In this document: in pieces, positions 35,468 through 63,043 of the stretch | Position numbering within the stretch: position 1 is the stretch's first letter | Layout: every line of letters begins with the position of its first letter | Source: Bacteroidales bacterium | GTDB lineage: Bacteria > Bacteroidota > Bacteroidia > Bacteroidales > UBA10428 | Direction of reading: 5' to 3' | DNA: 64,000 nucleotides | Assembly (NCBI GenBank): GCA_016938235.1 | Contig: JAFGVA010000150.1 | Coordinates: forward strand, 1 to 64,000 | Program-made: the position numbers and the translations under genes | The notes under the pieces: model-generated | Seen by the model: the letters and a program-made list of their open reading frames with translations, nothing else | What the model was told of the DNA's origin: nothing | Database searches by the model: none

Positions 35468-36001
35468 TTAGTATGTTTTAAAGGCCATTTCGCTAAGCTT
35501 GGAGCTTAATTTAATTTGTCGTGATGTTGCATTTGAAGGTTTAACTTCAAATTTCAATTTATCCCCGATAACCAGGAAATTTATTGCTGCCCCTTCGTCA
35601 ATGGCTCCGTTTTTTTCGCATATTATCAGTGTGCTTTTTGAAGCAAGAGCCGAAACAACTTCGCTCATCTGCTTTGTTTTACTAAAAGGCACAAATAAAA
35701 TATGACAATTACTTATCTGGTTAGGCTCATCAAACTTCTTCACTTGAATTGTTTGACTTCCTACCGATTTATTTTCAGTATACGCCAGCAATTCAGTATA
35801 AGTCTGCGAACTACCTACAGAACCAATTATAAAAGGGCCATCTTTATAAGATGCCGGCCATTCAATCAGTCTTGAGAAATTGTAAATAAACATTGCCTGG
35901 GCTCTGGGTATTCCTGTTTGAGAACCCGCAGACGTGAGAACTATCCATATTATTAAGACACCTATAAATTTTTTCATATTCCCCTTTTTTTTCATTTTCA
36001 A
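35468..36001 (-). CDS. YfiR/DUF4154 family periplasmic protein
   Basis: AMFIYNFSRLIEWP, SQTIQVKKFDEPNQISNCHILFVP, GAAINFLVIGDKLKFEV. Confidence 0.82.
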   Translation of the reverse strand: MKMKKKGNMKKFIGVLIIWIVLTSAGSQTGIPRAQAMFIYNFSRLIEWPASYKDGPFIIGSVGSSQTYTELLAYTENKSVGSQTIQVKKFDEPNQISNCHILFVPFSKTKQMSEVVSALASKSTLIICEKNGAIDEGAAINFLVIGDKLKFEVKPSNATSRQIKLSSKLSEMAFKTY

Positions 36002-53563: not shown

Positions 53564-54697
53564 TTAATGCTTGTATTGAACGATTGTTTGAGCAATTTTT
53601 GACAAGGGAAGTATCTTGTCGGCAGCGTTTAAATTTATAGCTTCTTTGGGCATGCCGAATACTACACATGAATGCTCATCCTGTGCTATTGTAAATGCCC
53701 CTGAGTTTTTCATTTCCAGTAAGCCTTTTGCGCCATCGTCTCCCATTCCGGTCATAATTACACCTATGGCATTTTTACCGGCATATCGGGCTGTTGATCT
53801 AAACAATACATCAACGCTGGGGCGGTGACGGTTAACTAAAGGGCCCTCTTGTATTTCAACATAATATCTGGCACCCGAACGTTTCAGCAGCATATGGTGA
53901 TTCCCCGGGGCAATTAAAGCTCTGCCTGGTATAACGGTATCGTTATTTTGGGCTTCTTTAACCGATATTTTGCATAAAGTATTAAGTCGTTCGGCAAAGG
54001 AACGCGTAAAATGTTCAGGCATATGCTGAACAACAACTATTCCTGGGCTATCTACAGGCAGCTCCTCAAGAAATATCCGTAAAGCTTCAGTTCCTCCTGT
54101 TGATGCACCAACTGCAACTACCAAATCAGTAGTTTTTATCATGCTGTAATCATTTGCTGGGGGTAGTATGGCATCGGCAGAGTATTTTGGTTGCACTTTT
54201 ATTGTATAACTTGGAGTGATACTTGCAGTGTGAGTTGAAGGTTGCGGAGATGAAGAAAAGTCGCTATTTGGCGATGGAGTTTTTCTTCGCGAAATCTTTG
54301 CAAACGATGCTGCCTTTACAGCATCGCAAATTTTTATTTTCGATTCTTCAATGAACTCCTTTGTATTCATCTGGGGTTTGGTAATTATTTCAACCGCTCC
54401 ATATTCCAGTGCTTTCATACCGGTTTCGGTTCCTTTTTCTGATAAGCTTGATATAATGACAACCGGGAGCGGATGTTGACTCATAATTTTTTTTAGGAAA
54501 GTCAGTCCGTCCATTCTTGGCATTTCAACATCGAGTGTGATAACATCCGGCACTTCTTTGGCAATCTTTTTAGCAGCAAATATGGGATCTGCAGCAGTAC
54601 CTATTACTTCAATCTTAGGATCGGTGCTTAGAATTTCAGATAATGTCTGTCGAACAACCGCTGAATCATCAACTATAAGTACTTTTATTTTTGTCAT
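53564..54697 (-). CDS. cheB: CheB protein-glutamate methylesterase
   Basis: [66 protein letters not shown]. Confidence 0.97.
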
Positions 54698-55185
54698 TTG
54701 CTACTTGTATTTGGTGAAGTTGTGGATTTAACAAATCGTTGGGAAATTTCTCCGGTATTGGAGTTGAAAATTATTTTACGACCTAATTTTCCTCCTGTAC
54801 TGTGGGCAACAATAGGAATTTTCAATTTTGCCAGTAATTCATTTGCAAGGTGAACATTACGTTCGCCAACGTTAAAATATGAAAAACTGGTTTGCAAAAC
54901 TTCTCCTCCGCCGAACACCTTAGCAATAAGGTTTTCGTGTCTGGTTCCGTAATTAATCATTTTTTCATATAGTTTTTCAATGGCAATATTTCCATATTTT
55001 GGTGATGCAAGCCCCTGTCCATTCCAAAAAGGAAGCATGTAATGGTTAATCCCTCCATATTGCAATTTTATGTCATACAAACAAACGGCTACGCATGAGC
55101 CGAGAATTGTATGAACTATTGCAGGTTTTCTGGGAACTACCAGTGCTGCCGGATATAAATAAATGCTTTCTTTTTCCTCTGTCAC
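54694..55185 (-). CDS. cheD: CheD receptor glutamine deamidase
   Basis: [40 protein letters not shown]. Confidence 0.95.
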
Positions 55186-55193
55186 GGTTGCAG

Positions 55194-56078
55194 CTAAAAT
55201 GTTTCCTCATCAAAGAAAAGCTCATTAACATCAGATGATGTGCCCGTACTTGTTTCCTTTGATTCAGGAATGTTTACAATAAATGTCGTACCCTTTTTTT
55301 CTGTACTTGTAAACGATATTGTACCATCAAGAATATCAAGTACAGCTTTATTGACTGAAAGACCCAATCCATGACCTCTGTTAACTGAATTGATACCACT
55401 GTCAACTCGTTTAAAGCGATCAAAAATTATATTTTCATCCTCTGAAGAAATTCCTTTGCCAAAATCTTGAACTTCAACAATTAACTTATCGAAAACTTTT
55501 GAAGCTCGTAAATATATTTTGCTTTTTTCATAGCTGAATTTAAGGGCATTACTAAGCAGATTCATTAATATTAAACTTAGTTTTTCAGGATCGGTATTAA
55601 AGAATAATTTGCCCTCATTATTTTTTCCTTCAATTTCAGAAATTATATTAATGCTTTTGTGTCTGGTATCGTATTTAAAGGTGTCAATTACATGCCCAAT
55701 AAGGCTCTCAATATCTACTGTTGATATTTCAGGCTGAAGTTCACCAGCTTCGAGTTTGGCTGCAGCAAATATGTTTTTAAGTTGAAAATCAAGATGGAAT
55801 ACTTCAGAATGGATTAGGGCAACCATGGATATTACCTTTTTCCAGTTTTCTTTATCAACGTCCAGAATATTATCAGACAAAGCTAAAACTGAAGTAAATG
55901 GATTTACTAATTCATTACAGATATTGGAAATGAAATGACTTTTTAAAGCTTCAGCTTCTTCAAGTTTACTGTTGACCTTAACCAGCGAAGCTTCTAAACG
56001 TTCAATTTCCTCCTTTAATGAAGCTTTTTCCTTATTTGCAGCTTCTAGTTCACTTATATAGTTTCTCTCTGCAGCCAT
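55194..56078 (-). CDS. Histidine-kinase-like protein with degenerate phospho-acceptor (His to Asn) and intact HATPase
   Basis: SHFISNICNELVNPFTSVLALSDNI (expected SHE motif reads CNE); HATPase motifs LLSNALKFS, DFGKGISSEDENIIFDRF, GHGLGLSVNKAVLDI. Confidence 0.88.
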   Translation of the reverse strand: MAAERNYISELEAANKEKASLKEEIERLEASLVKVNSKLEEAEALKSHFISNICNELVNPFTSVLALSDNILDVDKENWKKVISMVALIHSEVFHLDFQLKNIFAAAKLEAGELQPEISTVDIESLIGHVIDTFKYDTRHKSINIISEIEGKNNEGKLFFNTDPEKLSLILMNLLSNALKFSYEKSKIYLRASKVFDKLIVEVQDFGKGISSEDENIIFDRFKRVDSGINSVNRGHGLGLSVNKAVLDILDGTISFTSTEKKGTTFIVNIPESKETSTGTSSDVNELFFDEETF

Positions 56079-56081
56079 AGC

Positions 56082-56948
56082 TTAAATTTTAGAAAATACT
56101 GTTGGTATTATTGGTCTTAATGGTAAATCCAAACCTGTTATCGACTCGGAATGTCCTAGAAATAAGAATCCTCCTTTAATCAGGTTACTGCTTAATGCAG
56201 ACAGAATTTTAAACTGGGTTGGCCTGTCGAAATAGATTAGTACATTTCTGCAAAATACAAAATGATACTCAGCATTTCTGACAGGAGTTAACTCAAGCAG
56301 GTTAATTCGAACGTATTCGATTTTATTGCGCAAGGCTGAAACAATTCTAACTTTTTTTTGATTTTTATCTTTACTTCTTAAAAAGTATTTTTTCTTGAGA
56401 ACGAGCGGAATGTCAGCAATTCTGTCTTCCTTATAAACAGCATTTACAGCAGTTTCAAGCATTTTTGTTGAAATATCAGATGCCAGTATATGGTAATCAA
56501 TTCCGTGATGATTCTCAATAAATTCGCTTAGGGTTATTGCTAAAGTGTAAGGTTCTTCTCCGGATGAACATCCAGCACTCCATACCTTTATTAACCTTGT
56601 ATTAAAGTTTTTAACCGCATGTGGCAGTGCAGTTTCGAGCATAAAGTCGAAATGAATCGATTCTCTGAAAAAGTCGGTTTTGTTTGTGCTGACAACGTCC
56701 ATCATATGAATTACTTCTTCACTCATTCCATGAGGAGAGAAAAGATATTCGATATAATCTTTGAAGTTATTCATATTTAATGCTTTCAGACGTTTCTGCA
56801 GCCGACTCTGAAGCATTATTTTTTTCTCGGGTGGCATCTTAATGCCATACTCCGTCATTATAAAATTACTTAGCTTATTAAACTCAAATTGAGATAATTC
56901 AGCAGAATATAAACCAGATGAACTTATGGCTGAATCATTCTTTTCCAT
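56082..56948 (-). CDS. cheR: CheR-type MCP methyltransferase
   Basis: VVSTNKTDFFRESIHFDFML, KVWSAGCSSGEEPYTLAITL, FVFCRNVLIYFDRPTQFKIL, FLGHSESI. Confidence 0.97.
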   Translation of the reverse strand: MEKNDSAISSSGLYSAELSQFEFNKLSNFIMTEYGIKMPPEKKIMLQSRLQKRLKALNMNNFKDYIEYLFSPHGMSEEVIHMMDVVSTNKTDFFRESIHFDFMLETALPHAVKNFNTRLIKVWSAGCSSGEEPYTLAITLSEFIENHHGIDYHILASDISTKMLETAVNAVYKEDRIADIPLVLKKKYFLRSKDKNQKKVRIVSALRNKIEYVRINLLELTPVRNAEYHFVFCRNVLIYFDRPTQFKILSALSSNLIKGGFLFLGHSESITGLDLPLRPIIPTVFSKI

Positions 56949-57009
56949 ATCTTTTACTGAAATCTATAACAGGTTAGTAATTAATAAATTTCTAATAGCA
57001 GACTAACTG

Positions 57010-57474
57010 TTAAATATTTATAACTTCTTCGTCTGAAAACACCTTGTTCACATCAATAAGCATAACAAATTCGTCCTGAACTTTTGCCATTCCCCATAAA
57101 ATATCGGCATTGTAACTTGTTCCAATGCTGGGCGAAGCCTGGATGTCAGAATCAGCTAACTGAATAACTTCTCTTACACTATCTACTATTACACCAAGTA
57201 AAATAGACTCGTTTTTTATTTCAATATCCAAAACAAGTATACAGGTATCGGTTGTATAGGCGGTTTCTTCCAAACCAAATTTTAATCTTGCATCTAATAC
57301 GGGTAGTACACTCCCTCTCAGGTTTATAACGCCTTTCATATAAGCCGGAGATTTTGGAACTTGTGTAACTTTAGTCATCTCAAGTATGTTGATGACATTT
57401 TTTACATTAGCAGCAAATATTTCATTTCCAATCTGGAATGAAAGATACGATCTCATAGTTGAGTTTTCTTGCAT
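57010..57474 (-). CDS. cheW: CheW coupling protein
   Basis: YLSFQIGNEIFAANVKNVINILEMTKVTQVPKSPAYMKGVINLRGSVLPVLDARLKFG. Confidence 0.96.
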   Translation of the reverse strand: MQENSTMRSYLSFQIGNEIFAANVKNVINILEMTKVTQVPKSPAYMKGVINLRGSVLPVLDARLKFGLEETAYTTDTCILVLDIEIKNESILLGVIVDSVREVIQLADSDIQASPSIGTSYNADILWGMAKVQDEFVMLIDVNKVFSDEEVINI

Positions 57475-57502
57475 TTTGTAAAACTTAAGATGATTACTAA
57501 AA

Positions 57503-57868
57503 TCAGCGAATAACCTTATTAATTGCAGCTAATAATTTTGCCGGAACAAATGGTTTAACAATCCATCCTGTTGCACCAGCATCTTTAGCCTCCATTTTTT
57601 TTTCGGTTTGCGATTCCGTAGTTAAAAATAAAATTGGAGTTCTTTGATAATCCGGCATTTTTCTTATTTCTCTAATTAGTTCAATGCCATTCATTTCTGG
57701 CATATGAAGGTCGGTTATTATTAGATTTATACTTTGCCCGTCTAAATGATTTAGAGCATTCTTGCCATTATCGCTAATAAGAACATCGTAACCTTCATTT
57801 TGGAGGGTGAAACTTACTATTTCACGAATACTTTCAGAGTCGTCGACAAAAAGTATCTTTTTGCTCAT
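57503..57868 (-). CDS. CheY-like single-domain response regulator
   Basis: KKILFVDDSESIREIVSFTLQNEGYDVL...LIITDLHMPEMNGIELI...GATGWIVKPFVPAKLL. Confidence 0.95.
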   Translation of the reverse strand: MSKKILFVDDSESIREIVSFTLQNEGYDVLISDNGKNALNHLDGQSINLIITDLHMPEMNGIELIREIRKMPDYQRTPILFLTTESQTEKKMEAKDAGATGWIVKPFVPAKLLAAINKVIR

Positions 57869-59660: not shown

Positions 59661-59672
59661 TGATATTAATCA
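59661..59672. promoter_or_regulatory. Candidate Crp/Fnr-type site TGAT-N4-ATCA
   Basis: TGAT ATTA ATCA, ~70 bp upstream of the minus-strand gene starting at 59591. Confidence 0.45.
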
Positions 59673-59704
59673 CCCTGTATTGGTGATATAAAACATTTTA
59701 TTTA

Positions 59705-60085
59705 TTAACGATGAGAAACTATCTTTAGTGAAATGTTTATTAATGCGGAAACACATGTTAAAAATTTATCTGTATCAATAGGTTTTGTAAATGTGTTTTT
59801 AATACCCATTTTATTTAAAATGTATAAATAGTAGGGATTATTGCCAGACATCGCAATAATTTCAATAGAATCAGAAATATTCTTTATTTGTTTGATGAGT
59901 TCAACTCCTTCAATCCTGGGCATTACAATATCAGTAATGACCAAATTATAATTTCCGGCTTTTATTTTTTCGAGAGCCTCGTAACCATCCTTAGCGGTAT
60001 CTGCTGCAACATTAAAATTATTCTCAATTAAATACCGTATATATTTTCTGTCAAGAATATTATCGTCTACTATCAGAATTTTCAT
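59705..60085 (-). CDS. Single-domain response regulator
   Basis: MKILIVDDNILDRKYIRYLIE...LVITDIVMPRIEGVELI...NTFTKPIDTDKFL. Confidence 0.93.
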   Translation of the reverse strand: MKILIVDDNILDRKYIRYLIENNFNVAADTAKDGYEALEKIKAGNYNLVITDIVMPRIEGVELIKQIKNISDSIEIIAMSGNNPYYLYILNKMGIKNTFTKPIDTDKFLTCVSALINISLKIVSHR

Positions 60086-60190
60086 GGCATAACATTTATT
60101 AGTAGTTACGCCAAACGCTTTATATAGTTAAAACTATTAGATAAATGGATTGATTATTATGATTAATCTGAGAATTTTGCGCTTTAATAC

Positions 60191-60592
60191 CTATTTGGTC
60201 ATTTTGGCGTCTTGCTGTAAAACAGATTCAACTTTATCAACGAGATATTGTAAATCAATAGGCTTTTTAACAAAGTCGATAGCTCCCATATTCATTATTT
60301 TCTCGATGTTTTCTTCATCTGTAAGTGCTGAAACAACAATAACCGGTGTTGATTTGGTATTATCATTCTTTCTTATCTCCTGCAAGAAATCGAAACCACT
60401 TATTTTAGGCATTAATAAATCTAATAAAATAAGATCTGGAGTGTTCTTCTCAATAATTGAATATGCTTCTTTAGCATTCAGGGCAGTTTCTATCTTATAA
60501 CCCTTTTCATCCAATATCGCTTCTAATAATACTACATTGGTAGTAGAATCGTCAACAACTAATATGGTGTAATCTTTATTATCTGGCATCAT
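60191..60592 (-). CDS. Single-domain response regulator
   Basis: MMPDNKDYTILVVDDSTTNVVLLEAILDEKGY...DLILLDLLMPKISGFDFL...AIDFVKKPIDLQYLV; start trimmed from track. Confidence 0.92.
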   Translation of the reverse strand: MMPDNKDYTILVVDDSTTNVVLLEAILDEKGYKIETALNAKEAYSIIEKNTPDLILLDLLMPKISGFDFLQEIRKNDNTKSTPVIVVSALTDEENIEKIMNMGAIDFVKKPIDLQYLVDKVESVLQQDAKMTK

Positions 60593-60707
60593 TTGATACT
60601 GAATTTCTAATGTGATATTTATTCGCTTATTGTAAATATAAGTAAAAATGAGCAAAAATTGCAACAACTTGATTTTTTATAGGCCTGAGATTTGTTATTG
60701 GTAATAA

Positions 60708-60721
60708 ATGATCTAAATCAT
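60708..60721. promoter_or_regulatory. Candidate Crp/Fnr-type site in divergent promoter region
   Basis: ATGAT CTAA ATCAT perfect palindrome, ~80 bp upstream of the Crp/Fnr gene. Confidence 0.55.
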
Positions 60722-60802
60722 CATTTTTTAGACAATACTCTTTGATTTAGTCTTTTTTTTGCTAATTTTAATAGAAGATAACCTATAAAGAAATGTGAGT
60801 TA

Positions 60803-61480
60803 ATGCAAGGTTCCACAAAGAATAATTCTATCGTCCCTTTTGAACATTTATTGTCTGAACAGGAAAAGCAACAGATTATTGATAACAGTAATACGGTTTT
60901 ATATAATAAAAAGGAAATAATATTCAGACAGAATACACGCACCTCACATATTATGTTCATTAAGTCGGGCATGGTAAAAATTTTTAAAGAGGGAAGAAAC
61001 AAAAAGTTCATCATATTAAAGGTTGCCGTTCAGCAAGACTTTCTTGGCTTATTGTCAATTTACGGTCGCGATACCCATCAATATTCAGCATCAGCTGCTG
61101 TACCTACAGAAATATGCTTTATTGATATTGGGGTGTTTAATAAAATATTGTTTTCTAACGGGGAGTTTGCCGAGAGGTTTATTAATAAAATCTGCAACGA
61201 TGGACTTTATATTTTTGAACGTCTGATGAGTCAGTCGCATAAGCAACTTCCGGGACGTATTGCCGATGTTATTTTATATTTTGCTGAGAGGATATTTAAA
61301 GCCGATGAATTTGAATTCCCTTTCACAAGAAGGGAACTGGCAGAGTTGGCCGGAACAACAAAAGAAAGCTTTATACGAACTCTTGCTGAGTTTAAGAACG
61401 ATAAAATTATTGATCTGGATGGCTCTAATGTAAAGATTAATAGTTTAAAAATTGTTAAAACATTAAGTCAACTCGGATAA
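60803..61480 (+). CDS. Crp/Fnr family transcriptional regulator lacking N-terminal Fe-S cysteines
   Basis: cNMP-fold FRQNTRTSHIMFIKSGMVKIFKEG; HTH FTRRELAELAGTTKESFIRTLAEFKNDKII; only two internal Cys. Confidence 0.92.
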   Translation: MQGSTKNNSIVPFEHLLSEQEKQQIIDNSNTVLYNKKEIIFRQNTRTSHIMFIKSGMVKIFKEGRNKKFIILKVAVQQDFLGLLSIYGRDTHQYSASAAVPTEICFIDIGVFNKILFSNGEFAERFINKICNDGLYIFERLMSQSHKQLPGRIADVILYFAERIFKADEFEFPFTRRELAELAGTTKESFIRTLAEFKNDKIIDLDGSNVKINSLKIVKTLSQLG

Positions 61481-61490
61481 TTTGTATAGC

Positions 61491-61868
61491 ATGTCAAAGT
61501 TAAAGATTATAATTGCTGATGATATTTTTACTAACCGACTTCTATTGTCTGAAATATTAAAGGATCTAGGGTATGAGTTTTTCCTGGCAAAGAATGGCAA
61601 GGAAGCTGTTGATGAATTGCAGAAAAGCGATTACAACCTTGTTTTAATGGATATTGAAATGCCGGTAATGAATGGCGTTGAGGCAACTAAATTTATACGC
61701 GAACAACTGGAGAGCCCAAAATGCAATGTGCCGGTTGTAGCACTTACTGCACATAATCCAAAACTTTTTTTTGATGACTTCAGAAACGTTGGCTTTTCAC
61801 AACTTCTGACCAAACCTTATTCTGTGGCGAAACTCCGGGAATTACTGGAGTCGTATGTTGAAATTTGA
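61491..61868 (+). CDS. Single-domain response regulator, co-oriented with Crp/Fnr gene
   Basis: KLKIIIADDIFTNRLLLSEILKDLGY...LVLMDIEMPVMNGVEATKFI...SQLLTKPYSVAKL. Confidence 0.93.
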   Translation: MSKLKIIIADDIFTNRLLLSEILKDLGYEFFLAKNGKEAVDELQKSDYNLVLMDIEMPVMNGVEATKFIREQLESPKCNVPVVALTAHNPKLFFDDFRNVGFSQLLTKPYSVAKLRELLESYVEI

Positions 61869-61873
61869 GCTTT

Positions 61874-62338
61874 TTATAAAAATTTCTTATTTATTAAATT
61901 TAAAATTCCGGAAAGTCCCGCCAGATCGTCCCGATCGAACTGTTCTGTTTTATCACTATCAATATCGAGTACCCCAACCACTTTTCCTGAAGTATCTTTT
62001 ACAGGAATTACAATTTCCGATTTCGAACGTGAATCGCATGCTATATGATCGGGAAAATCTTCTACATCAGCGACAATAATTGGCTCAGATTTTAAAACTG
62101 AAGCCCAGCAAACGCCTTTAGGTTTTGTAAGTACCTGACAGGCTAATGGTCCCTGGTAGGGCCCAACAATTAACTCATCGTTTTTTATAAAATAAAATCC
62201 TACCCAAAATATATATGGCACTTTATGATACAATAGGGCATTTATTGTTGCTAACTGAGCATTTAGTGAAGGACTGTTTTTTAAAAGAGGCTCAAGTTGA
62301 TGTATAAGTCTGTTGTATTTTTTTTGTTTCGAGTTCAT
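61874..62338 (-). CDS. GAF-domain free methionine-(R)-sulfoxide reductase (fRMsr)
   Basis: VGFYFIKNDELIVGPYQGPLACQVLTKPKGVCWASVLKSEPIIVADVEDFPDHIACDSRSKSEIVIPV; three conserved Cys. Confidence 0.9.
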   Translation of the reverse strand: MNSKQKKYNRLIHQLEPLLKNSPSLNAQLATINALLYHKVPYIFWVGFYFIKNDELIVGPYQGPLACQVLTKPKGVCWASVLKSEPIIVADVEDFPDHIACDSRSKSEIVIPVKDTSGKVVGVLDIDSDKTEQFDRDDLAGLSGILNLINKKFL

Positions 62339-62422
62339 TACAAAATGTTTGCTGGAAATATAAAAAAAAATAATCCAAACAGAAGCCTGGATTATTAATT
62401 TCTTGAAATTGTTTGTTGGTTT

Positions 62423-62641
62423 TTAGGCTGGTATAAAGTCATAGATACGTATTACTTTAAACAAATTGTGTGGCAATGGTTTTAATACAATTCGTTTATC
62501 ACCCTTTTGGTAGAGCACATAGTGATAAAATTCGAAACACTGTAAGTTTGTAGGTCTTACTCCAAGCAAGCTAAGTTCATCTGTACTAAAGCATGAACCT
62601 GATTTGATTTGTAGGGTAGGAGTTTGTACTAATGTATTCAT
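62423..62641 (-). CDS. Hypothetical 72-aa protein
   Basis: Intact ORF with two upstream TGATATGA-type palindromes; no recognised family. Confidence 0.5.
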   Translation of the reverse strand: MNTLVQTPTLQIKSGSCFSTDELSLLGVRPTNLQCFEFYHYVLYQKGDKRIVLKPLPHNLFKVIRIYDFIPA

Positions 62642-62706
62642 ATCTATTGAGATTTGGTTCCGGTACTAAACTACTATAAAGTTCAACTTGAAACCTAAAG
62701 AGTTGT

Positions 62707-62722
62707 GGTGATATGAATTACC
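62707..62722. promoter_or_regulatory. Candidate Crp/Fnr-type site (imperfect copy)
   Basis: GGTGAT ATGA ATTACC. Confidence 0.45.
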
Positions 62723-62729
62723 TAAGAAG

Positions 62730-62745
62730 GGTGATATGAATCACC
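62730..62745. promoter_or_regulatory. Candidate Crp/Fnr-type site (perfect copy)
   Basis: GGTGAT ATGA ATCACC, perfect 6-bp arms. Confidence 0.55.
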
Positions 62746-62932: not shown

Positions 62933-62969
62933 AAAAACCGGTTAAGTTTTTTTAACATTAACCGGTTTT
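62933..62969 (-). terminator. Intrinsic terminator downstream of tRNA-Lys
   Basis: aaaaccggttaa-gtttttttaaca-ttaaccggtttt on plus strand; T-run on minus strand after hairpin. Confidence 0.85.
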
Positions 62970-62970
62970 G

Positions 62971-63043
62971 TGATTCCGCTGAGGCTCGAACTCAGGACCC
63001 CATCCTTAAAAGGGATGTGCTCTACCAACTGAGCTACGGAATC
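62971..63043 (-). tRNA. tRNA-Lys (anticodon TTT)
   Basis: Reverse complement gattccgtagctcagttggtagagcacatcccttttaaggatggggtcctgagttcgagcctcagcggaatca folds as cloverleaf; anticodon loop cttttaa. Confidence 0.95.

Follow-up and report, generated by a model that had tools for sequence, protein, structure and literature searches.

The intergenic DNA of a che gene cluster in a Bacteroidales bacterium (UBA10428) carries repeated TGAT-N4-ATCA palindromes around an embedded gene for a Crp/Fnr-family protein, raising the question of whether these are operators of that protein and how far its control would extend. The window analyzed was a stretch of 64,000 nt (GCA_016938235.1, contig JAFGVA010000150.1, positions 1-64,000), within which the region under study spans 59661-62745 (Table 1); open reading frame starts were assigned by a simple caller, and -7 elements served to derive the putative transcription starts. 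A sequence-only reading of this DNA had quoted four palindromes and suggested a local regulon with autoregulation of the regulator gene (crp) and control of the che cluster. Direct inspection of the sequence confirmed the positions of all four and their intergenic location, and the distance claimed to the start codons (roughly 65-105 bp) agreed with site centers at 73-97 bp from the coiled-coil, crp, and 72-aa genes. The comparative analysis supports, with a probability of roughly 0.84, the prediction that the GRTGATNTANATCAYC palindromes are operators of the 60803-61480 Crp/Fnr protein controlling chemosensory and surface-lifestyle genes.

Table 1. Coordinates of predicted operators, promoter elements, and genes in the window.
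Feature	Position	Strand	Remarks
Primary palindrome TGATCTAAATCA	60709..60720	.	Common to crp and divergent RR2
Degenerate second site TAACAAATCTCA	60686..60697	-	23 bp from primary site, RR2 side
Putative -7 element of crp TAATTTTA	60763..60770	+	TAnnTTT[GA] at fixed distance in relatives
Putative -7 element of RR2 TATATTTA	60633..60640	-	At +74 from site center
Palindrome TGATATTAATCA	59661..59672	.	Upstream of coiled-coil che gene
Second copy TGATATAAAACA, one mismatch	59684..59695	.	23 bp from 59661
Palindrome TGATATGAATCA	62732..62743	.	Inside GGTGATATGAATCACC (62730-62745), upstream of 72-aa gene
Second copy TGATATGAATTA	62709..62720	.	23 bp from 62732
Crp/Fnr-family regulator (crp), 225 aa	60803..61480	+	PF00027 and PF13545; helix TTKESFIR
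Response regulator RR2	60191..60592	-	Response_reg; divergent partner of crp
Response regulator RR3	61482..61868	+	Directly 3' of crp; probable operon
Coiled-coil che-cluster gene, 567 aa	57888..59591	-	No Pfam match; predicted target
cheB, cheD, histidine kinase, cheR, cheW, cheY	53564..57868	-	Downstream of coiled-coil gene
72-aa conserved protein	62423..62641	-	Predicted target

The frequency of the bare core did not distinguish the locus. TGATN4ATCA was found four times in the window compared to 2.04 expected (13 of 100 shuffles reached four), and the 148 copies in the 5.22 Mb genome were about as many as predicted from the shuffled window rate. Because neither the window nor the genome was enriched, raw counts alone are uninformative and the significance of the sites derives from their conservation and position. 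A position weight matrix was trained on 30 crp-upstream sites with the window left out and applied to 1.25 Mb of the bacterium's own genome, where it identified 10 upstream-intergenic sites scoring at least 14 bits; matrices with permuted columns gave 0.25 on average and at most 2. The sites of the 59661-62745 region made up five of the 10. The consensus was GRTGATNTANATCAYC, and the base before TGAT was G or A (99%) and hardly ever T (1%).

A scan of bacterial genomes with the 60803-61480 protein yielded 61 loci, all from Bacteroidota and mostly labeled Bacteroidales. The sequence-only reading had made its proposal depend on conservation in orthologous intergenic DNA, and this was borne out: the exact palindrome was present within 300 bp upstream of the crp orthologue in 33 of 58 loci, the window included, compared to 0.8 (maximum 4) in dinucleotide shuffles. 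Site position and sequence were maintained across dozens of loci, with protein identities of 38-82%. In a spacer control on the crp upstream regions, N4 was strongly preferred and other spacers were rare, with a peak at N7 (12 loci) attributable to the overlap of TGATGAT and ATCATCA. The exact site was absent in about 40% of the crp loci, among them a paralogous clade with the same recognition helix. The gene order coiled-coil gene, RR1, RR2, divergent crp, RR3, GAF, and 72-aa gene was kept in close relatives, and most orthologous loci have RR2 next to crp in divergent orientation, such that the 60709 site is common to crp and RR2. Six Marinilabiliaceae relatives (L087, L088, L089, L093, L096, and L098) have the site before RR2 of a che gene cluster instead of crp, often as a 22-23 bp pair, and contain hybrid kinases between RR2 and crp.

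The arrangement of the sites was similarly constrained. Around the best site in 44 RR2 upstream regions, the only strong secondary peak of the matrix score was at an offset of +23, and a weaker copy was located exactly 23 bp nearer the gene on both the RR2 and 72-aa sides. The same 23-bp pairing was displayed by the coiled-coil gene sites, the spacing of 59661 and 59684 being identical to that of 62709 and 62732, and six relatives retain the 59661/59684 pair. In the RR2 regions, the weaker copy had TAA replacing TGA in the left half and kept the right half. A Bacteroidota-type -7 element, TAnnTTT[GA], was found at +47/48 from the site center on the crp side in 17 of 34 regions (~0.8 expected). 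On the RR2 side, TAnnTTT[G/A] occurred at +63/64 in 18 of 42 relatives compared to about one by chance, with a smaller group at +73/74, and the RR2 element of the window falls one helical turn beyond the +63/64 of its relatives. With transcription taken to start ~12 bp past the first base of the -7 element, the operator centers fall at ~-60 for crp and at ~-76 and ~-53 for RR2, positions that would suit activation. The copy at 59684-59695, the sharing of the 60709 site by divergent RR2, and targets elsewhere in the genome are three features beyond those described previously for this DNA.

Comparison of the che clusters revealed where the coiled-coil gene has a site of its own. When this gene lies directly 3' of RR2 (gap 6-81 bp), its own site was found in 0 of 20 relatives, one of them with a mis-called ORF between the two genes, compared to 6 of 6 relatives, plus the window, when RR1 intervenes (gap 108-401 bp), where the sites usually form a pair. 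The restriction of the site to broken operons is as expected if the che genes must stay under the same regulator. Co-transcription of the downstream che genes with the coiled-coil gene is possible. At 57010-57868, cheW and cheY adjoin without a cheA between them and a 294-aa histidine kinase is encoded separately; relatives such as L049 and L054 have a 680-690 aa CheA-like gene in that position. Elsewhere in the genome, a second Crp/Fnr paralogue (L180; G000 C142:9000-15000) adjoins cheW-like and MCP-like genes, and a link between Crp/Fnr proteins and chemotaxis therefore occurs more than once.

The regulon suggested as local proved too narrow, as distant genes for SiaC, the 63-aa protein, an ABC transporter, YfiR-like proteins, a chemoreceptor, and adhesins are also preceded by sites. 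In the bacterium's own genome, the genes behind distant matrix sites include those for a chemoreceptor with a CZB domain (C224), a phosphoprotein of the SiaC family (C167; 60.9 against an NCBIfam equivalog cut-off of 150, and thus below it), a protein resembling YfiR/HmsC (C27), a 63-aa protein (C197), a SprB-repeat protein (C198), and an Ig/PKD protein of 4521 aa that bears a CHU_C type IX signal (C149). Four YfiR/HmsC-like (DUF4154) genes occur in tandem at G000 C27:63705-66242 (partly L194), and the window has an additional copy at about 35486-35977. In other genomes, strong sites again precede members of several of these target families or of similar families. The site was present in 8 of 8 SiaC orthologues of the genus compared to 0 of 20 scorable SiaC paralogues, in 6 of 7 scorable 63-aa orthologues compared to 0 of 7 paralogues, and in 12 of 18 best-per-genome ABC transporter matches compared to 0 of 12 more distant paralogues. 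Every 72-aa orthologue had the site, located between about -71 and -99 in all but one, whose start was mis-called, and clear orthologues were found only in genomes that also encode a crp orthologue. The 72-aa protein had no Pfam or NCBIfam match and no significant PDB fold match (best fold E 0.42). Upstream of its 62730 site, at 62937-63043, are a tRNA-Lys (TTT) on the minus strand and then a hairpin-like CCGGTTAA repeat, which makes separate transcription of the 72-aa gene probable. Among 40 relatives, 21 encode a Crp orthologue and 19 of these carried the strict motif, compared to 3 of the 19 that lack one, a co-occurrence for which shared ancestry accounts in part; a reversed-motif control gave one match in all 40 genomes.

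Crp/Fnr proteins bind TGA-containing dyads via E and R residues of the recognition helix, and the Escherichia coli FNR box is TTGAT-N4-ATCAA. The 60803-61480 protein passed the gathering cut-offs of both PF00027 (E 1.1e-15) and PF13545 (E 7.7e-13) and by domain content belongs to the Crp/Fnr superfamily; its own gene and the recurrent targets are preceded by conserved TGA-containing dyads. The helix TTKESFIR, to which the sequence-only reading had drawn attention, was invariant in orthologues down to 38% overall identity except for F/L/I at one position, as was the surrounding block GTTKES.IRTL.EFKNDKII. The sensor domain, by contrast, varies among the orthologues, a pattern consistent with an unchanging operator and a variable input. 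The protein shares with E. coli FNR the superfamily, the TGAT-N4-ATCA core and spacing, and the E and R of the helix, but differs in the G or A before TGAT, in isoleucine replacing the helix serine, in lacking the N-terminal cysteine cluster, and in a predicted regulon that is chemosensory and surface-related rather than one of anaerobic respiration. FNR proper was rejected, as only two cysteines are present (EICF and KICN), none of them near the N-terminus, compared to four for a 4Fe-4S cluster, the Fnr model scored 37.1 bits against a cut-off of 228, and the rarity of T before TGAT does not fit the FNR box TTGATNNNNATCAA.

A cAMP-dependent CRP was likewise rejected. A phmmer alignment to CRP chains showed the Glu72 and Arg82 contacts both replaced (GELGLF..RSAW to GLLSIY..QYSA), and the CRP equivalog model scored 42.1 bits against a cut-off of 266; the input signal is probably not cAMP. 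The cNMP-fold sensor, the Crp-type HTH, and the class I-like site positions resemble E. coli CRP, but the cAMP-contact residues are not conserved and the motif has TGAT and no TGTGA half-site, the E. coli CRP box being AAATGTGA-N6-TCACATTT (PMC5449483). The closest solved relative by sequence is CrpPg (PG0396) of Porphyromonas gingivalis (PDB 2gau). This protein needs no cAMP to bind DNA, including its own promoter, and affects fimbriae and biofilm (PMC12040651). The box reported for it is similar to that of E. coli CRP, its helix MTVSNAIR lacks the E of the 60803 protein, and it corresponds better to the C216 paralogue of the bacterium's own genome (TTSNAIR). The SiaABCD system of Pseudomonas aeruginosa (PMC7647112; PMC8457831) is comparable in that a phosphoprotein of the SiaC family recurs here among the predicted targets, but the link in the present case is transcriptional and predicted. 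Among the papers found in literature searches, none described the motif or the regulon.

Alternative explanations concern which protein binds and with what effect. That the palindromes serve a different Crp/Fnr paralogue, or are common to several, with closeness to the 60803 gene explaining only part of the pattern, is unlikely. The genome encodes several paralogues, some with the E..R recognition pattern, and two relatives (G007 and G010), although their genomes are 97-98% complete, have neither crp nor RR2, nor the coiled-coil and 72-aa genes, yet retain sites, before SiaC and the 63-aa gene in G007 and as one site near the ABC gene in G010. The TTKESFIR helix was not found in any Crp/Fnr paralogue seen in these two genomes, in which the locus may be missing from the assemblies or another paralogue may bind. 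Against a different binder, the site is conserved at the promoter of the 60803 orthologue itself, motif and orthologue co-occur across genomes, all four own-genome paralogues examined lack a strong site at their own gene, and paralogues with other helices have other dyads, e.g., TGTGATNNNNATCACA. Other Crp/Fnr paralogues with helix RESVSR or RESISR (L397 and L398) have a different dyad, TGTGATNTGNATCACA, located ~30 bp before the start of their own genes, which suggests separate autoregulated regulons.

A mainly repressive role of the 60803-regulator sites would overlap with the favored explanation and differ only in the sign of control. It is doubtful, though less so than a different binder: in other bacteria, tandem sites of the CRP/FNR type can mediate repression, but the centers ~60 bp (crp) and ~53 and ~76 bp (RR2) upstream of the derived starts lie outside the core promoter. 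Chance occurrence in AT-rich intergenic DNA could appeal to the flat raw counts of the core in window and genome, but is contradicted by the conserved position and sequence, the contrast between orthologues and paralogues, and the exact 23-bp pairing, and is extremely improbable. A terminator or RNA hairpin was rejected on account of the short dyad, the N4 center, and the conserved position upstream of promoters.

Autoregulation and che-cluster control by the embedded Crp/Fnr protein thus remains the best reading of the sequence, with sites conserved at crp, the 72-aa gene, and the coiled-coil gene of broken operons. The sites, their conservation and spacing, and the genes behind them are computational observations, from which we infer the identity of the binding protein, activation over repression, and the physiological role. 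A Crp/Fnr dimer would bind the dyad via the TTKESFIR helix about 60 bp upstream of the putative crp start, and RR2, the 72-aa gene, and the coiled-coil che gene would be served by tandem pairs of a strong and a weaker site 23 bp apart, positions that are typical of activation. Under this arrangement, the regulator would act on its own gene, on a response regulator, and on the chemosensory cluster, together with dispersed targets predicted to include the SiaC-type phosphoprotein, YfiR-like proteins, CZB chemoreceptor, ABC transporter, and giant type IX-secreted adhesins. Most likely, the regulator is a Crp/Fnr protein that activates a regulon for chemosensory functions and surface adhesion independently of cAMP. 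As judged from the genomes compared, the operator is well supported, its two-site layout is defined, and the regulon is broader than proposed earlier. With somewhat better than even odds, this is a previously undescribed Bacteroidales regulon in which a cAMP-independent Crp/Fnr protein couples chemosensory signaling to type IX-secreted adhesins and SiaC/YfiR-type signaling through a fixed layout of a strong dyad and a one-half-degenerate dyad 23 bp nearer the promoter.

Little is known of the control of che-like clusters and surface adhesins in Bacteroidota without flagella, and the papers found dealt with PorXY and T9SS motor control. The outcome is a precise predicted operator, a defined regulator, and a list of targets over chemosensory, signaling, and adhesion genes, with orthologues in named strains including Alkalitalea saponilacus and Marinilabilia rubra. 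The contrasts between orthologues and paralogues and between intact and broken coiled-coil operons provide clean natural experiments for operator evolution.
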